Below are positions 3,523 to 19,533 of a stretch of 36,938 nt of DNA, piece after piece (the first letter of the stretch is position 1; the number at the start of each line of letters is the position of its first letter). The translations under genes were made by a program, and so were the position numbers. The DNA comes from Methanobrevibacter olleyae (lineage in GTDB: Archaea; Methanobacteriota; Methanobacteria; Methanobacteriales; Methanobacteriaceae), in NCBI RefSeq assembly GCF_900114585.1, contig NZ_FOTL01000024.1:1-36938 (forward strand), written 5' to 3'. Below the pieces are notes generated by a model. It was not told where the DNA came from, searched no databases, and was given only the letters and a program-made list of their open reading frames with translations.

Positions 3523-5386
<1,864 letters not shown>

Positions 5387-7291: not shown

Positions 7292-8071
7292 TTATTTTCC
7301 ATACCATTCTTTCAAAACATCTAAATTATGAGTCATGTCTAATATTAAAGGAGTTAAAGTAGGTAAATTCTCTTCCATAATAATATAATCATCTGAATAT
7401 TTAGGATTATCTTTATATAAAATACCATTAATCCAATAGTAAGGCCTTCCTCTAGGATCTATACGTTTTTCCACAGTAGGTTCATACATTCTATCTGCTA
7501 AAGGACAGATAATAGGATCATAAGAATCTGGATTTGCTGGAACATTTAAATTTAATAGATCAATTCCCTTTGGAAAGCCATTGTCAATAACTTTTTGAAT
7601 AAGATCTCTTAAAATTTTTTGACTTGATGAAAAATCAATTTTAATATGTCCTTCATCAAACTTAATATCATCATCTGGAGTATGTTGGCTAACTGCAATG
7701 GTTGGGATTCCTAAAGAAGCTGCTTCTGTTGCAGCACCTAAAGTACCAGATGTTGAAAGTTCCCCTTTTCCAGTGTTTCTACCTGTATTTATTCCAGAAA
7801 TTACTAAATCTGGTTTTTCATTCATAATTTCATAGATACCAATGGTAACTGCATCAGTAGGAGTTCCGGAAACTCCATATCCTATATCCCCATCTCTTAA
7901 ATTTACTTCTTTAACTCTAAGTGACTCAAAGAGAGTTAATGCATGACCAATTCCACTTTGTTGTTTAGATGGTGCTACTACACAAGTTTCTCCAAACTCT
8001 TTAGCAACTTGTTTAGCTGCTAAAATACCTGATGCATTAACACCATCATCATTAGATAATAAAATTTTCAT
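7292..8071 (-). CDS. surE: 5'/3'-nucleotidase SurE
   Basis: SurE is a divalent-metal phosphatase that dephosphorylates nucleoside monophosphates and is linked to stationary survival in bacteria. The metal-binding SNDDG motif sits at residues 6-10, and the family signature segments SGINTGRNTG and the GTPTDAV region follow. LLNLNVPANPDS is also typical. The frame is open four codons further to a TTG, but the ATG at 8071 gives the canonical MKILLSNDDG start; GATGG just upstream may serve as a weak SD. The 259-residue length is normal. The gene appears to be a single unit. Confidence 0.94.
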   Translation of the reverse strand: MKILLSNDDGVNASGILAAKQVAKEFGETCVVAPSKQQSGIGHALTLFESLRVKEVNLRDGDIGYGVSGTPTDAVTIGIYEIMNEKPDLVISGINTGRNTGKGELSTSGTLGAATEAASLGIPTIAVSQHTPDDDIKFDEGHIKIDFSSSQKILRDLIQKVIDNGFPKGIDLLNLNVPANPDSYDPIICPLADRMYEPTVEKRIDPRGRPYYWINGILYKDNPKYSDDYIIMEENLPTLTPLILDMTHNLDVLKEWYGK

Positions 8072-8255
8072 AGGAACCATCAAAATAATAAAAATTAGAT
8101 AGCAAATAAATTAAATAAAAAATTAAAAAATCTATATTAAATCAATAAAATCCATATAAACCAAATAAAATATATATAAACTAAATAAAATAACAAAAAA
8201 GAAAGTGTTTAATTTTAAATTAAAATAAATTTAATATAAATCAATTAGTTTAAAA

Positions 8256-8954
8256 TTATTTATTAGCAGAAATCAATTTTCTAGCTGCTCTCATATCATT
8301 ATTATAAATATGGCCAGAACTAGAATAATAATGAACTCCACCAAAGTTTAATTTATCCCCCATTATTTCTTTATTTACTTCATCTTTCATTTTAATACCA
8401 ATATATGTTATGAAAAACATATTAGAATAAAATGCCCCAAATATATCATTAGAACGGAAGAAACAATGAATAGTTAATTCTCCATCTCTTACAATAATCT
8501 GTAATACCTGTAAACATGGAATATCTTCTCTTTCACCATCTAATACAGGGTCAATAGTAACAGCTACTGCACGATTACTTCCAGTAGAAGTTAAAATCCT
8601 TTCTTTCATAGTTTCAAATTGATCTATACCAAAATGCTCTAAGATACGATTAGGATAAGTATAAACAAAACCTTGATCATCTCTTATTTCAAAAGATTTT
8701 ACATATTCATATAAAGCATCTCCCTTAATCGGACATGAATCAATGTCAAATCTTCCACTTTTAACTTCTTTTAACATCAATTCAGAAGTCATATGTTGAT
8801 ATTTTGCTCTGAATTTTAAATCTAATGGATCATCAATATAATAATAATTACCAAGACTTTCTTTTAAATGATGATCACTGTCTTTATATGTTTCTTTTCC
8901 TTCTTTTAAGATTTTATTAACAAAATCTAAGTAACATTGACCAATAGATAACAT
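8256..8954 (-). CDS. thyA: Methanogen-type thymidylate synthase
   Basis: This 232-residue protein matches the short archaeal form of thymidylate synthase found in Methanobacteriales and Methanococcales. It converts dUMP to dTMP with a one-carbon donor, presumed to be a methylene-tetrahydropterin. The catalytic cysteine is C147 in DIPCLQVLQ, which aligns with the PC.QxxQ region of ThyA; the RDGEL stretch and the nucleotide-binding HYYSSSGHIYNND (H.Y..D) follow. The SNRAV arginine is a candidate phosphate ligand. The ATG start has AAGGAA about 11 nt upstream, a poor SD. It is shorter than the bacterial enzyme (about 264), as usual for this subfamily. A dCMP hydroxymethylase role cannot be excluded by sequence alone. 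Confidence 0.88.
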   Translation of the reverse strand: MLSIGQCYLDFVNKILKEGKETYKDSDHHLKESLGNYYYIDDPLDLKFRAKYQHMTSELMLKEVKSGRFDIDSCPIKGDALYEYVKSFEIRDDQGFVYTYPNRILEHFGIDQFETMKERILTSTGSNRAVAVTIDPVLDGEREDIPCLQVLQIIVRDGELTIHCFFRSNDIFGAFYSNMFFITYIGIKMKDEVNKEIMGDKLNFGGVHYYSSSGHIYNNDMRAARKLISANK

Positions 8955-9279
8955 AATAAACTATTCCTTAAAATTATAATTGAAAACAATCTAAATTTTT
9001 AAAAAAAAAATTCTGTTTCATTGTAAATTATATAACTAATATTATTATATAATTTCATTATTATAAATATTTTTAATTAATTTTAAAAAAAATTGAAAAG
9101 TTAAGAAAAATAATAAAAATTTAATAAATTAATAAAAATTTAATAAATTAATAAAAATTTAATAAAATAATAAAAAGTATAAAAAATTATGAAAAACTGA
9201 AAAGCTATGAAAAATTAATAAAAATTATATATTGAGAAAATATAAATATATTATATTAAAATTAGGATTAGGTGAAAAT
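8955..9279. other. AT-rich divergent spacer thyA / Mrr-like gene
   Basis: No gene is visible in these 325 bases. It holds a 19-bp tandem repeat at 9110-9166 and TATA-like sequences for the two divergent genes, e.g. TTATATAAT near 9027-9054. The frame of the Mrr-like gene opens at a TTG at 9232, within this spacer. Confidence 0.4.
9110..9166. repeat. Tandem repeat, 3 x 19 bp
   Basis: Three units of TTAATAAAAATTTAATAAA lie head to tail, the first with A for T at its start. A partial fourth unit follows. The unit is pure A/T and sits upstream of the Mrr-like gene. Confidence 0.8.
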
Positions 9280-10398
9280 GTGGAAAAGCCACAATTAGTG
9301 AATTTTATAGCTAAAGTTCTTGAAGATTCTGGCTTTAAAGTTTATAAAAATTTTAAAACATCACAACAAGTTGTAGACATATATGCAATCTTACAAACAT
9401 CAATGGGGGATTTCGGTTTAGTCGTTGCATGTAAAAACTATGACAAGGACTGGGAAGTTGGAATTGATGTTTTAAAAGAAATGGAAGTTATTGGTAAAAA
9501 ACTTAAAGCATCTAAAGTTGCTGTTGTAACTAGTTCTGGTTTTTCTTCTCAAGCAAAAAGATATGCTCAAGAGAGAAAAGTCAAATTAATAGATAGAAAC
9601 AACCTTGTTACTTTAGCTAAAAAATATTCAAATAAAAAGAAAGAAACAAAACAAAGATTAAAACGTGAAGCAGATAGACTCACTGATATTGATAGTGATT
9701 CATTCTATAAAGATGTTAACAGAGATTATATTGACAATAGGTCAAATTATGATAGAAGTTATGAATATGATAATAGGTTTCAAGGAACTTATGAAGATTA
9801 TGAAGAATATGCTGAAGACATGGAATATTATGAGAATGAAGTTGGTGGATTAGAGTTAAGTCATTACGATGAGTACGATGATGATTTATATCGTGCTGAA
9901 TTTTTAAATAAAACCTCTATAGATAACAATTCCGGCATAAATAGTTCTTTATTATCAAATCATCAAAAAGAAGCTCCGAAAAGAAGAAGATCTTTTCTTT
10001 CAAGCAGTAGATTAAATAATCCTCTTAGTCAAAGAAGAGGTGATTCTGATAATAGACAAAAGTTTATCTCTCATTCTGATAATGCATTAACTAAGTTTAG
10101 TAGACAAAGTCCTCAAAAACCAAGGAAACCTATTGGAGATATTATTAAACCTATATTAAGTAATCCTATAGCATCTGTTGCTATTGTTGTTATTATTTCA
10201 TATTTAATTGGATTTATCCTTGGAAAAATAGCAAGAGTACCTACAGGATTTTTAGGAATCAGCGAACTTATAATAGCATTAGTATTATCCTATGGTATAG
10301 TATTATACGCAGATAGAGAAGCAGATGTTTTAGTAAAAGGAACAATTGTATTCTTTATTTCATTAGTAATTATTATAATATTGACTGTTGCTTTTTAG
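9280..10398 (+). CDS. Membrane-anchored Mrr-like restriction endonuclease-fold protein
   Basis: The N-terminal ~120 residues show an Mrr/restriction-endonuclease-like fold: a helix (LVNFIAKVLEDSGF), the metal-site aspartate in VVDIYAIL (D33), the lysine strand GLVVACKNY (K52, motif D-Xn-AxK with Ala-Cys where Glu/Gln is usual), and then VAVVTSSGFSSQAKRYAQERKVKLIDR, typical of Mrr_cat. A central linker (about 125-290) is very rich in Asp, Glu and Tyr and then basic/Ser-rich. Three C-terminal hydrophobic segments lie near residues 296-318, 325-344 and 352-372. The frame opens at a TTG (9232), but GTG at 9280 follows TTAGGTGAAAAT, a proper SD, so this start is preferred. Its substrate is unknown; it lacks adjacent methylase genes, so it is not an obvious restriction system. 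Confidence 0.75.
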   Translation: MEKPQLVNFIAKVLEDSGFKVYKNFKTSQQVVDIYAILQTSMGDFGLVVACKNYDKDWEVGIDVLKEMEVIGKKLKASKVAVVTSSGFSSQAKRYAQERKVKLIDRNNLVTLAKKYSNKKKETKQRLKREADRLTDIDSDSFYKDVNRDYIDNRSNYDRSYEYDNRFQGTYEDYEEYAEDMEYYENEVGGLELSHYDEYDDDLYRAEFLNKTSIDNNSGINSSLLSNHQKEAPKRRRSFLSSSRLNNPLSQRRGDSDNRQKFISHSDNALTKFSRQSPQKPRKPIGDIIKPILSNPIASVAIVVIISYLIGFILGKIARVPTGFLGISELIIALVLSYGIVLYADREADVLVKGTIVFFISLVIIIILTVAF

Positions 10399-10460: not shown

Positions 10461-10756
10461 TCTTTAAAGCGTTGAACTGAGAAAGTGCTCAACTAAGCCT
10501 AATTTTAAATCTTTAAAGCCATCTTCTTTTTTCTTTTTCATTTTAAAAAAAAAAATATTTTTTAAAATCTAGAAAAATATATCATTCTATTTTTTACGAA
10601 CAATTACTCAAGAATCTGATATTAATAGCTAAATAAGTTTTAAAAAAATAAATATTGATAAAAAACTAGAAATAAATTTAAAATAATAAAAACTAGAAAA
10701 AATAAGAATTAAAAAAGTTTAAAAAATTCAGTCAAACTTTTTTAAAAGTTTAGAAG
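10461..10756. other. AT-rich spacer before tRNA pair
   Basis: I see no gene here. A fragment GAGAAAGTGCTCAACTAAGCC near 10480-10499 and a T-rich stretch near 10525-10545 follow the hairpin. Just 3' of the tRNA genes in the minus sense is AAACTTTTAAAAAAGTTT (10732-10751), a hairpin that could end the tRNA transcript. Confidence 0.4.
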
Positions 10757-10828
10757 TGGTTCCGGCGAGATTCGAACTCACGATCCTCTCGTTGTAAGCG
10801 AGATATCATACCCCTAGACCACGGAACC
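10757..10828 (-). tRNA. tRNA-Val (anticodon UAC), copy 1
   Basis: In the minus sense the 72-nt gene folds as a cloverleaf: acceptor GGTTCCG/CGGAACC with discriminator A, D arm with TCTAGGGGTATGA, anticodon stem TCTCG/CGAGA around loop CTTACAA (anticodon TAC), and T arm with GTTCGAATC. No intron and no encoded CCA are present. It is identical to the copy at 10904-10975. Confidence 0.97.
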
Positions 10829-10903
10829 AATTAAATGAATTAAAAAAAGAATTAATATTTATTAAAAAAACAAAAATTAATTCAAAAAATAAAATAGTTA
10901 TAA

Positions 10904-10975
10904 TGGTTCCGGCGAGATTCGAACTCACGATCCTCTCGTTGTAAGCGAGATATCATACCCCTAGACCACGGAACC
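10904..10975 (-). tRNA. tRNA-Val (anticodon UAC), copy 2
   Basis: This gene has the same 72-nt sequence as the first copy, with acceptor GGTTCCG/CGGAACC, anticodon TAC in loop CTTACAA and T-loop TTCGAAT. The 75-nt spacer between the two shows no clear promoter, so both probably come from one precursor started at the box near 11005-11019. Confidence 0.97.
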
Positions 10976-11004
10976 ATACTACACAATAGATATTGTTTAC
11001 ATAT

Positions 11005-11321: not shown

Positions 11322-12245
11322 ATGGCATTTGATGAAAATATGAAAGTTTGGATGGATGGAGAATTTCTAGCACTGAAAGATGCTAAAATTAGTATTCTCT
11401 CTCACGTAGTTCACTACGGATCTGCAGTATTTGAAGGTATAAGATGTTATGAAACTGAAAATGGACCTGCTGTATTCCGTTTAAAAGAACATGTAAAAAG
11501 GTTATTTGAATCTGCTAAAATTTACAAGATGGATATTCCATTTACTCAAGAAGAAATCTTTGATGCAATCATAGAAACTATTAAAGTAAATAACTTAAAA
11601 AGTTGTTATATCCGCCCAATAACTTACAGAGGTTTTGGTGAATTAGGTGTAAACCCCTTAAATTGTCCTGTTAACATCACTATTGCTGTGTGGGAATGGG
11701 GAGCATACATTGGAGAAGAAGAAATGAAACAAGGTGCAAATATTGGTATCTCTACTTGGAGAAAACCGGCACCAGACACATTACCAGTTCTTGCAAAAGC
11801 TGGAGCAAACTATATGAACTCTCAACTTGCTAACTTAGAAGCTAGAGAACATGGATATGATGAAGCAATTATGTTAGATTACCAAGGACATGTTGCAGAA
11901 GGTAGTGGAGAAAACATTTTCATCGTAGAAAATGGCAAAATCGTTACCCCTGATTTAGGTTCTTCTATTCTTCAAGGAATTACTAGAGACAGTATTATAA
12001 CCATTGCAAAAGATTTAGGTTATAAAGTATCTGAAGAAGTAATTTCAAGAGAAAGACTATATTTAGCTGATGAAGTATTCTTTACTGGAAGTGCAGCAGA
12101 AGTTACTCCAATTCGTGCAATAGACAACAGACAAATCGGTATTGGAAGTAGAGGTCCTCTAACCAAAGAATTACAAGAAAAATACTTCGATGTAGTAAAT
12201 GGTAAAACCGAAGATATTCACAATTGGTTAACCTATCTTGAATAA
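11322..12245 (+). CDS. ilvE: Branched-chain amino acid aminotransferase
   Basis: IlvE is a fold-type IV PLP enzyme that transfers amino groups between 2-oxoglutarate/glutamate and the keto acids of valine, leucine and isoleucine. The 307-residue length is normal. Visible motifs are the N-terminal HYGSAVFEGIRCYET, the YIRPITYRGFGELGVNP segment, the PLP-lysine region LPVLAKAGANYMNSQLA (the Lys in LAKAGANY), and EGSGENIFIV plus EVFFTGSAAEVTPI, which hold the cofactor phosphate. The ATG has AAAGGTGA at good spacing. A hairpin with a T run follows about 70 nt downstream. It is one of five ilv genes in this window but stands alone. Confidence 0.96.
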   Translation: MAFDENMKVWMDGEFLALKDAKISILSHVVHYGSAVFEGIRCYETENGPAVFRLKEHVKRLFESAKIYKMDIPFTQEEIFDAIIETIKVNNLKSCYIRPITYRGFGELGVNPLNCPVNITIAVWEWGAYIGEEEMKQGANIGISTWRKPAPDTLPVLAKAGANYMNSQLANLEAREHGYDEAIMLDYQGHVAEGSGENIFIVENGKIVTPDLGSSILQGITRDSIITIAKDLGYKVSEEVISRERLYLADEVFFTGSAAEVTPIRAIDNRQIGIGSRGPLTKELQEKYFDVVNGKTEDIHNWLTYLE

Positions 12246-18330: not shown

Positions 18331-19533
18331 TTATATATCAGAATTACCTAGTAAAAAATCAACTAAGTTTAAATGCTTGATTCCATTATTAGACATATCA
18401 GCATCGTCCATAGTGATTATATATTTAGGATAATTATCCTTAATCTTATTTAATAGAGCAAATTCTCTTTCAATTGTCTCATCACTTGCTAAAAGATATG
18501 AAACTTGAACATAAATAATATTTGATTGTTTTTTACAAACAAAATCAATTTCTAAATCACCAAATTTGCCAATATTAATATTGTATCCTTTTCTTAAAAG
18601 TTCAATATAAACAATATTTTCTATAACTCTTGTAATATCTCTTTGATTATGACCGATCATCACTTGTCTAAATCCCAAATCACATAAATAATATTTTTCT
18701 TCATGTTTTAATATTTTCTTAGATTCTAAATTTTCACGTTTTACTTGATAGATTAAGCATGCATTTTCAAAATATTTTAAATAATTATAAATCGTATTAA
18801 CAGATAAATTGACCATATCCTGTTTTAATCTATTGTAAATTTTATTTGCAGAAAAAGTTTGAGAAATATTATACATTACAAATCTCATAATTCTATCTAA
18901 TAAATCAACATTTTTAATATTATTTCTTTGAACAATATCTTTAAGTACAATAGAATTATATAGATCCATCAACACTATTTTTCGATCATCCCCTTCATAA
19001 TCAAAAGTAGAAGGCATCCCTCCATTTTCTAAATAATTATAAAAATGTGTTTTAAAATCATTAGAAATATTATAATAAGTAATGTATTCTTTAAACGAAA
19101 AGGGATAAACATTTAATTCTAGATAACGGCCAGATAAATAAGTTGCAAATTCGCCAGACAATAATTTAGAATTAGAACCTGTAATATAAATATCATGATT
19201 TCCTTTAGCAAAATAGGAGTTAATTAATTTTTCCCACTTAGGAATAGCTTGTATCTCATCAAAAAATAAATAAATCTCACCTTCTAAATTTTTAGTTTTA
19301 TCTGAGATAAAATTTTCTAGTTTATTAATATCATCGATTTCAAAATAATCACTTAGTTCAAAGTTAATCCAAATAATATTTTCTTCTTTAATTCCTTCTT
19401 CAATTAAATAATCAATAATTTGTTTAAGAATTGTTGATTTTCCAGAACGTCTTGGACCTATTAAAACTTTAATAATAGGTTTATTTATAAAAGGCTTAAT
19501 TTTATCAATATATTCAGTTCTTTTAATAATCAT
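18331..19533 (-). CDS. AAA_14 / DUF4143 ATP-binding protein
   Basis: This 400-residue protein has an AAA_14 ATPase domain with Walker A IGPRRSGKST (residues 25-34), Walker B IYLFFDEIQ (about 107-115) and the ITGSNS sensor, then DUF4143. The C-terminal part holds GDLEIDFVCKKQSNIIYVQVSY, a PD-(D/E)xK-like nuclease pattern in which Q-V-S replaces the usual E-x-K. Such proteins are abundant in Methanobrevibacter and other anaerobes, often as scattered paralogues, and no function is established; links with mobile elements or toxin-antitoxin-like roles are only proposed. ATG with GGTTGTGAT upstream. It is not in an operon and a 40-bp tandem repeat precedes it. Confidence 0.85.
   Translation of the reverse strand: MIIKRTEYIDKIKPFINKPIIKVLIGPRRSGKSTILKQIIDYLIEEGIKEENIIWINFELSDYFEIDDINKLENFISDKTKNLEGEIYLFFDEIQAIPKWEKLINSYFAKGNHDIYITGSNSKLLSGEFATYLSGRYLELNVYPFSFKEYITYYNISNDFKTHFYNYLENGGMPSTFDYEGDDRKIVLMDLYNSIVLKDIVQRNNIKNVDLLDRIMRFVMYNISQTFSANKIYNRLKQDMVNLSVNTIYNYLKYFENACLIYQVKRENLESKKILKHEEKYYLCDLGFRQVMIGHNQRDITRVIENIVYIELLRKGYNINIGKFGDLEIDFVCKKQSNIIYVQVSYLLASDETIEREFALLNKIKDNYPKYIITMDDADMSNNGIKHLNLVDFLLGNSDI

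Follow-up and report, generated by a model that had tools for sequence, protein, structure and literature searches.

Why would a methanogen hold a restriction-enzyme fold at its membrane, and does such a domain still need to cleave nucleic acid? The question is posed by a gene of Methanobrevibacter olleyae that joins an Mrr_cat-like domain, by way of a disordered linker, to three C-terminal membrane helices. The gene lies in a stretch of 36,938 nucleotides (contig NZ_FOTL01000024.1), referred to here as the window. The coordinates of the gene, its parts, and its conserved neighbours are collected in Table 1.

Gene model

The reading frame of the gene also opens upstream, at a TTG at position 9232, which gives a longer ORF than the version starting at 9280. 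A GGTG-type sequence together with a start codon at the codon-1 position recurs in most of the 47 tabulated homologues, and we therefore place the start at 9280 rather than at the TTG. AT-rich tandem repeats with periods of 10, 19, and 38 occupy positions 9087–9229, in the intergenic DNA directly upstream of the gene. Within its own genome, the gene is the sole Mrr_cat match. A candidate second copy (L002; E 0.08, residues 269–372), found in a 671-aa protein that we take to be FeoB, was rejected as a chance match between membrane helices.

Table 1 Features of the membrane-anchored Mrr_cat gene and its conserved neighbours (positions in the window).
Feature	Position	Strand	Basis or remark
surE, conserved divergent upstream neighbour	7292..8083	-	Pfam SurE
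ggtgaaaat, likely ribosome-binding stretch upstream of the GTG	9269..9279	+	GGTG-type sequence recurs in homologues
Whole gene: Mrr_cat-like domain, disordered linker, three membrane helices	9280..10398	+	372 codons, GTG start
Predicted PD-(D/E)xK-fold domain, residues 1–118	9280..9633	+	Pfam Mrr_cat; AlphaFold2 pLDDT 85.7; AF1548 Z 16.2; dN/dS 0.025–0.039
D33, motif aspartate, invariant	9376..9378	+	118/118 rows with a letter
A50-C51-K52, degenerate (D/E/Q)xK half of the motif (K52 codon, 9433–9435)	9427..9435	+	Alignment
K56, candidate stand-in lysine	9445..9447	+	In 17/17 K52-less rows with a letter there
E67-M68-E69, in the helix that follows strand 3	9478..9486	+	E69 invariant; position 67 E or D in 118/119
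Predicted disordered linker, acidic/Tyr-rich then basic, residues 126–284	9655..10131	+	Full-length model, composition; length lineage-specific
Predicted membrane helix 1, residues 296–318	10165..10233	+	Hydropathy and model
Predicted membrane helix 2, residues 322–344	10243..10311	+	Hydropathy and model
Predicted membrane helix 3, residues 350–371, conserved G354, F358, F359, S361	10327..10392	+	Model, alignment
Class IV aminotransferase (ilvE-like), frequent downstream neighbour, then BacA/UppP	11322..12245	+	Pfam, gene order

Fold of the N-terminal domain

Residues 1–112 match the Pfam family Mrr_cat (PF04471) (E 6.3e-16; 59 bits, cut-off 21), and all 24 members of the alignment match the same family at E <= 0.01. 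An AlphaFold2 model of residues 1–122, with 12 sequences as input, has a mean pLDDT of 85.7 and contains, in order, a helix (residues 3–16), three strands (20–26, 31–40, and 43–52), a helix (62–74), a strand (79–84), a helix, a strand, and a final helix. D33 falls on the second strand and K52 on the third, and this order of secondary-structure elements supports the placement of the catalytic motif at these two residues.

Foldseek gave AF1548, AspBHI, EndoMS/NucS, and MspJI as the first matches to the domain model. With VIA-align, the top match was again AF1548 (PDB 1y88; Z 16.2, rmsd 2.6, 114 residues, 19% identity), an Mrr-type PD-(D/E)xK protein of Archaeoglobus fulgidus, followed by NucS, AspBHI, VC1899, EndoMS, Can2/Cdn1/Card1, FokI, RPB5, Hjc, and HindIII. 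As modelled, the domain is a PD-(D/E)xK fold, with AF1548 well ahead of the other matches; that a fold is shared says nothing of function by itself. The available sections of the GOS paper (PMC1821046) give 38D, 51E, and 53K as the predicted catalytic residues of AF1548, and these probably pair with D33, A50, and K52. AF1548 has the motif glutamate, whereas the window protein has alanine at this position and adds the linker and the three membrane helices.

Sequence searches were less informative as to relatives of solved structure. The single protein matched none of the solved structures and sequence search turned up no membrane-anchored relative among them, while the solved-structure matches of the family profile fell on the low-complexity linker only and were discarded. 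Hjc (PF01870) gave no match to the window protein among Pfam families up to E 1. NA-iREase1 (PF22722), Pfam's inactive-nuclease family, matches 20 of the 24 members at E <= 0.01; the window protein itself scores 23.8 bits, under the curated cut-off of 27. NA-iREase1 is the inactive nuclease domain of NACHT proteins, and a Pfam search of the window protein detected neither NACHT nor any other NTPase domain.

Linker and membrane helices

The linker (159 aa) is composed of 20% Asp/Glu, 8% Tyr, and 16% Lys/Arg and lies mostly below pLDDT 50 in the full-length model, whose mean pLDDT of 54.6 makes it adequate only for the general arrangement of domain and helices. Across 119 distinct homologues, linker length varies from 30 to 187 aa. 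The long acidic, tyrosine-rich form is a trait of this genus and not of the whole family; elsewhere the linker has about 30 residues.

Hydropathy peaks at residues 297, 324, and 350 agree with the three modelled C-terminal helices. Six residues of the membrane part (G326, G339, G354, F358, F359, and S361) are kept in at least 114 of the 119 homologues. The stretch preceding helix 1 is rich in Lys/Arg (mean 3.3), and this feature, combined with the absence of a signal sequence, suggests that the domain lies on the cytoplasmic side.

Active-site residues across the family

Residue counts were taken from the alignment of the 119 distinct homologues, in which some rows have no letter at a given position. 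Beside the invariant D33, the domain retains Y35 in 118 of 118 rows and E69, S78, and Y95 in 119 of 119 each. The other half of the motif is degenerate. At position 50, the expected Glu/Gln site, 105 homologues have Ala, five Thr, three Ser, three Glu, one Val, and one Asn, and the most distant row (L057) has Leu. Position 52 is Lys in 101 homologues, Asn in 13, Asp in three, and Glu and Arg in one each, leaving 18 of the 119 without the lysine. All three E50 rows carry N52. The complete D-(E/Q)xK set occurs in no member; the Glu/Gln before x-Lys is missing in 116 of 119.

The history of the lysine was traced on a tree of 116 rows, with the motif columns excluded and three of the 119 rows omitted as fragments or broken. 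The state of position 52 needs six changes on this tree, and well-supported branches force at least four; some rows sit on long branches, so the exact placement of the K52 losses is unsure. The K52-less rows are not all assembly errors, because two of them (L138 and L139, from G068 and G104) come from near-complete genomes of one or few contigs. K56, present in every K52-less row with a letter there, might replace the lost lysine. It is also found in 63 of the 101 K52-bearing rows, i.e., it was common before the loss of K52. The retention of D33, E67, and E69 suggests that a metal may still bind. As judged from the alignment, the conserved job of the protein cannot need K52 in all lineages and would need Glu/Gln at position 50 in none.

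Hjc, a PD-(D/E)xK repair nuclease, served as a working-nuclease control from the same organisms. In a sample of 50 loci, several of them from K52-less genomes, E12, D42, E55, and K57 are all retained (50/50). M. olleyae carries a separate Hjc of its own (G000:C28). Hjc was detected in 89 of 95 class genomes, as against 94 of 95 for the window gene. The six genomes in which Hjc was unmatched include G045, G046, and G047, which are three of the eight genomes of one genus, two of these being assembled in one or two contigs; at the other extreme, G034 has four Hjc matches.

Most of the layout proposed in the sequence-only reading of this gene is borne out. The arrangement of an Mrr_cat-like domain, a linker, and three C-terminal membrane helices is confirmed by Pfam, hydropathy, and AlphaFold2, with hydropathy and the model agreeing on the membrane anchor; D33, K52, and the Ala-Cys pair before the lysine are where that reading had put them. 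The PD-(D/E)xK core it anticipated in residues 1–120 is present in the model, with AF1548 at the head of the structural matches and Hjc further down the list. Its suspicion of altered activity fits the degeneracy of the motif as aligned. Conservation of its two key residues held in full for D33 and in part for K52 (101 of 119), and the acidic, tyrosine-rich linker it described, although present in the window protein, is not family-wide.

Selection on the parts of the protein

Rates of substitution were compared between the main clade that has lost K52 (10 rows, 38 pairs) and a clade that bears it (14 rows, 76 pairs). Median dN/dS of the domain is 0.039 in the former and 0.025 in the latter. 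The corresponding values are 0.113 and 0.133 for the membrane part and 0.206 and 0.132 for the linker. With dS close to 1 and pairs that are not independent in their history, all of these values are descriptive. In both clades no other part of the protein is as constrained as the domain, which is clearly under strong purifying selection even without the lysine.

Occurrence and gene neighbourhood

The gene is carried, usually in single copy, by 94 of the 95 class genomes of at least 90% completeness, and by 111 of the 114 of at least 85% completeness. The three genomes without it (G014, G125, and G126) are all assemblies of tens to hundreds of contigs. A search of 60 related genomes gave matches in 44. 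Two full-length places were found in each of G075 (contamination 8%) and G135. Among 280 archaeal genomes sampled outside the class, 11 gave weak matches, confined to the Mrr stretch. Nine of these 11 loci were read (L094–L102) and are built differently: most lack membrane helices, L098 has two at its N terminus, and the C-terminal three-helix part is absent from all nine. In a phylum-wide search centred on a different archaeal genome, none of the five genomes covered gave a match.

Phage records gave no match at E <= 0.001, and no relative is encoded on the viral contigs. Seven plasmid records match at 27–31% identity and <30% coverage, the hits being named restriction endonuclease, and PHROGs has one unknown family over the Mrr stretch. 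PADLOC models match the same stretch weakly, namely ZorD in 23 of 24 members, PDC-S02 PDLC04819 in 21 of 24, and mREase_IV in 16 of 24. All of these PADLOC matches, those to type IV restriction models included, come from the Mrr domain that the proteins have in common.

Gene order was tabulated for 95 loci of at least 6 kb, with some genomes represented more than once. surE lies upstream on the opposite strand in 87 of the 95, and the aminotransferase lies downstream on the same strand in 42, many loci having flanks of 3 kb only. One or the other stands at the expected place in 89 loci; neither does at L064, L044, L134, L136, L165, and L057. The full order runs from a divergent surE upstream, through the gene itself and a tRNA-Val region, to the class IV aminotransferase and BacA/UppP. 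This gene order is old, and the gene is a vertically inherited core gene of the class Methanobacteria. Beside it, no fixed neighbour other than surE was found in the 95 loci. surE is on the other strand, in this genus with a third gene intervening, and a functional link to surE was accordingly not used as evidence of function.

Several other features of the window were recorded. Between surE and the gene lies an ORF at 8256–8954 (232 aa) that is conserved in the genus and has no Pfam match at E <= 1e-5; we presume that it resembles archaeal thymidylate synthase. The tRNA-Val region holds a tandem tRNA-Val(tac) pair on the minus strand (10756–10828 and 10903–10976), and positions 10703–10976 contain a 147-base near-duplicate unit with 83% matches. 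A gene at 3523–5163 encodes a product of 546 aa, presumably a fusion of the Kae1-Bud32 type. At 18331–19533, Pfam identifies an AAA_14/DUF4143 ATPase gene, a kind that often varies between strains.

Discussion

The reading that we favour, tentatively and at somewhat less than even confidence, is that of a class-wide core protein whose membrane-held Mrr-type domain is a non-cleaving binding module, part of a housekeeping tether or scaffold. A cytoplasmic Mrr-type domain would be held at the inner membrane face by the three C-terminal helices via the flexible linker. There it would serve for binding, perhaps with D33 holding a metal, and would keep nucleic acid, or a partner sitting on it, close to the membrane. 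Its conserved job would not require DNA cleavage. Because that job appears independent of K52 in some lineages and of Glu/Gln in all, a pseudo-nuclease is the simplest reading, the fold being retained for binding and the membrane part for location. In its favour are the near-universal occurrence, the place by surE, the degenerate site, the constraint on the domain, the Hjc control, and the similarity to NA-iREase1. Weighing against it, D33, E69, and an E or D at position 67 are retained as an enzyme might need, K52 persists in 101 of 119 homologues, and K56 is a possible stand-in. We regard the protein as a membrane-anchored, degenerate Mrr-type core component of this methanogen class, with a mechanism that is moderately uncertain.

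A non-catalytic use of the same fold beside DNA is provided by the N-terminal domain of RPB5 in eukaryotic RNA polymerases. That domain is among the structural matches (1dzf, Z 8.0; 8uhd, Z 8.7) and differs in its ~13% identity, its lack of a membrane anchor, and its being part of RNA polymerase. The accessible portion of Kosinski et al. 2005 (PMC1189080) mentions further families in which copies of the PD-(D/E)xK fold are inactivated, and McrC-type folds with inactivating replacements are noted in the portion of the CoCoNuT paper to hand (PMC11090510). Those portions, and that of PMC1821046, do not treat the window family, and no paper on it was found among open-licence PubMed Central papers. 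The consulted part of Gao and Gupta 2007 (PMC1852104) has no mention of MTH1431, MTH1434, or MTH143x, locus numbers that are themselves guesses; six such guessed MTH numbers led to no paper in the open-licence PubMed Central set.

What the module would bind is a further matter. The net charge of the domain has a median of +5 with K52 and 0 where K52 is lost. This neutrality counts against a simple DNA-binder by charge, a candidate that was rejected, and because the charge of the K52-less clade disfavours DNA binding, a DNA tether is a guess among the binding roles. A bolder version of the tether seems unlikely to us: a universal membrane-tethered pseudo-nuclease that would grip chromosomal DNA or RNA as a class-specific factor of chromosome-membrane attachment or segregation, its cutting site having been given up several times.

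The main rival to a non-cleaving module is an active nuclease with a rearranged site. The protein would then be a membrane-bound housekeeping DNA or RNA nuclease in which D33 and, standing in for the absent Glu/Gln, E67/E69 of the next helix hold the metal and K52 or K56 supplies the lysine. A glutamate shifted to the next helix is known from Cfr10I/Bse634I, and the near-complete retention of D33, E69, and an acidic residue at 67, the prevalence of K52, and the presence of K56 in all K52-less rows with a letter are what such an enzyme would predict. The best fold matches also include the active NucS/EndoMS, MspJI, AspBHI, Can2, and Card1. However, K52 has been lost four to six times under strong constraint, whereas the lysine of Hjc is kept throughout its sample, and K56 was already widespread in K52-bearing rows. 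On balance we consider cleavage by such a site somewhat unlikely, though less so than any of the explanations that follow.

We judge it fairly improbable that the protein is a membrane sensor or signalling component whose fold binds nucleotide or protein, not DNA, in the manner of the inactive nuclease-fold domains of NTPase conflict systems. The NA-iREase1 similarity in 20 of 24 members, the neutral domain of the K52-less clade, and the six conserved positions of the membrane part are consistent with this role. Nonetheless, the window protein falls short of the NA-iREase1 cut-off and has no NTPase domain, and the only fixed partner beside the gene is surE, on the other strand.

The sequence-only reading had put forward defence against entering DNA, and a membrane guard that cuts incoming DNA, in defence or uptake, is an improbable role for this protein. 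Fast change is usual in defence genes, whereas the domain has a dN/dS of about 0.03. Mrr similarity, membrane location, the weak PADLOC matches, and the low-coverage plasmid hits named restriction endonuclease all speak for a guard. Against it stand the near-universal and usually single-copy occurrence, the fixed place by surE, the absence of a relative among phage records and viral contigs, and the degenerate site. Neither patchy occurrence nor a defence neighbourhood was found across the class genomes, where the neighbours are housekeeping genes. The defence reading is unsupported because occurrence, gene place, and rate resemble those of housekeeping genes. Compared with Mrr-type restriction endonucleases, the family is degenerate at Glu/Gln and, in the K52-less members, at Lys, and its gene belongs to the core, not to a restriction locus. 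The closest proposal in the literature concerns COG4741 (T. volcanium TVN1166), put forward as a guard against foreign DNA, in which an N-terminal membrane helix is joined to a YraN-like PD-(D/E)xK domain that has an intact E-D-ExK motif (Kosinski et al. 2005, PMC1189080, as far as the available text goes). The window family instead has three C-terminal helices and A50-C51-K52, and does not fit COG4741 as that text describes it.

A decaying, functionless relic of a restriction enzyme, which the loss of motif residues might suggest, is scarcely credible and is already refuted by the constraint on the domain, alongside retention in nearly every class genome and residues invariant across the class.

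Genes that are class-wide yet functionally uncharacterised are signs of basic biology that has been missed, and this class includes the main gut and rumen methanogens. If our favoured reading of a non-cleaving, membrane-held module is true, a restriction-enzyme fold under strong selection, with its catalytic residues drifting, would represent a nuclease converted to a binding or anchoring role, in a domain of life where chromosome-membrane attachment is poorly understood. If the domain is active instead, a nuclease with an unusual site would sit on the membrane of every member of the class.
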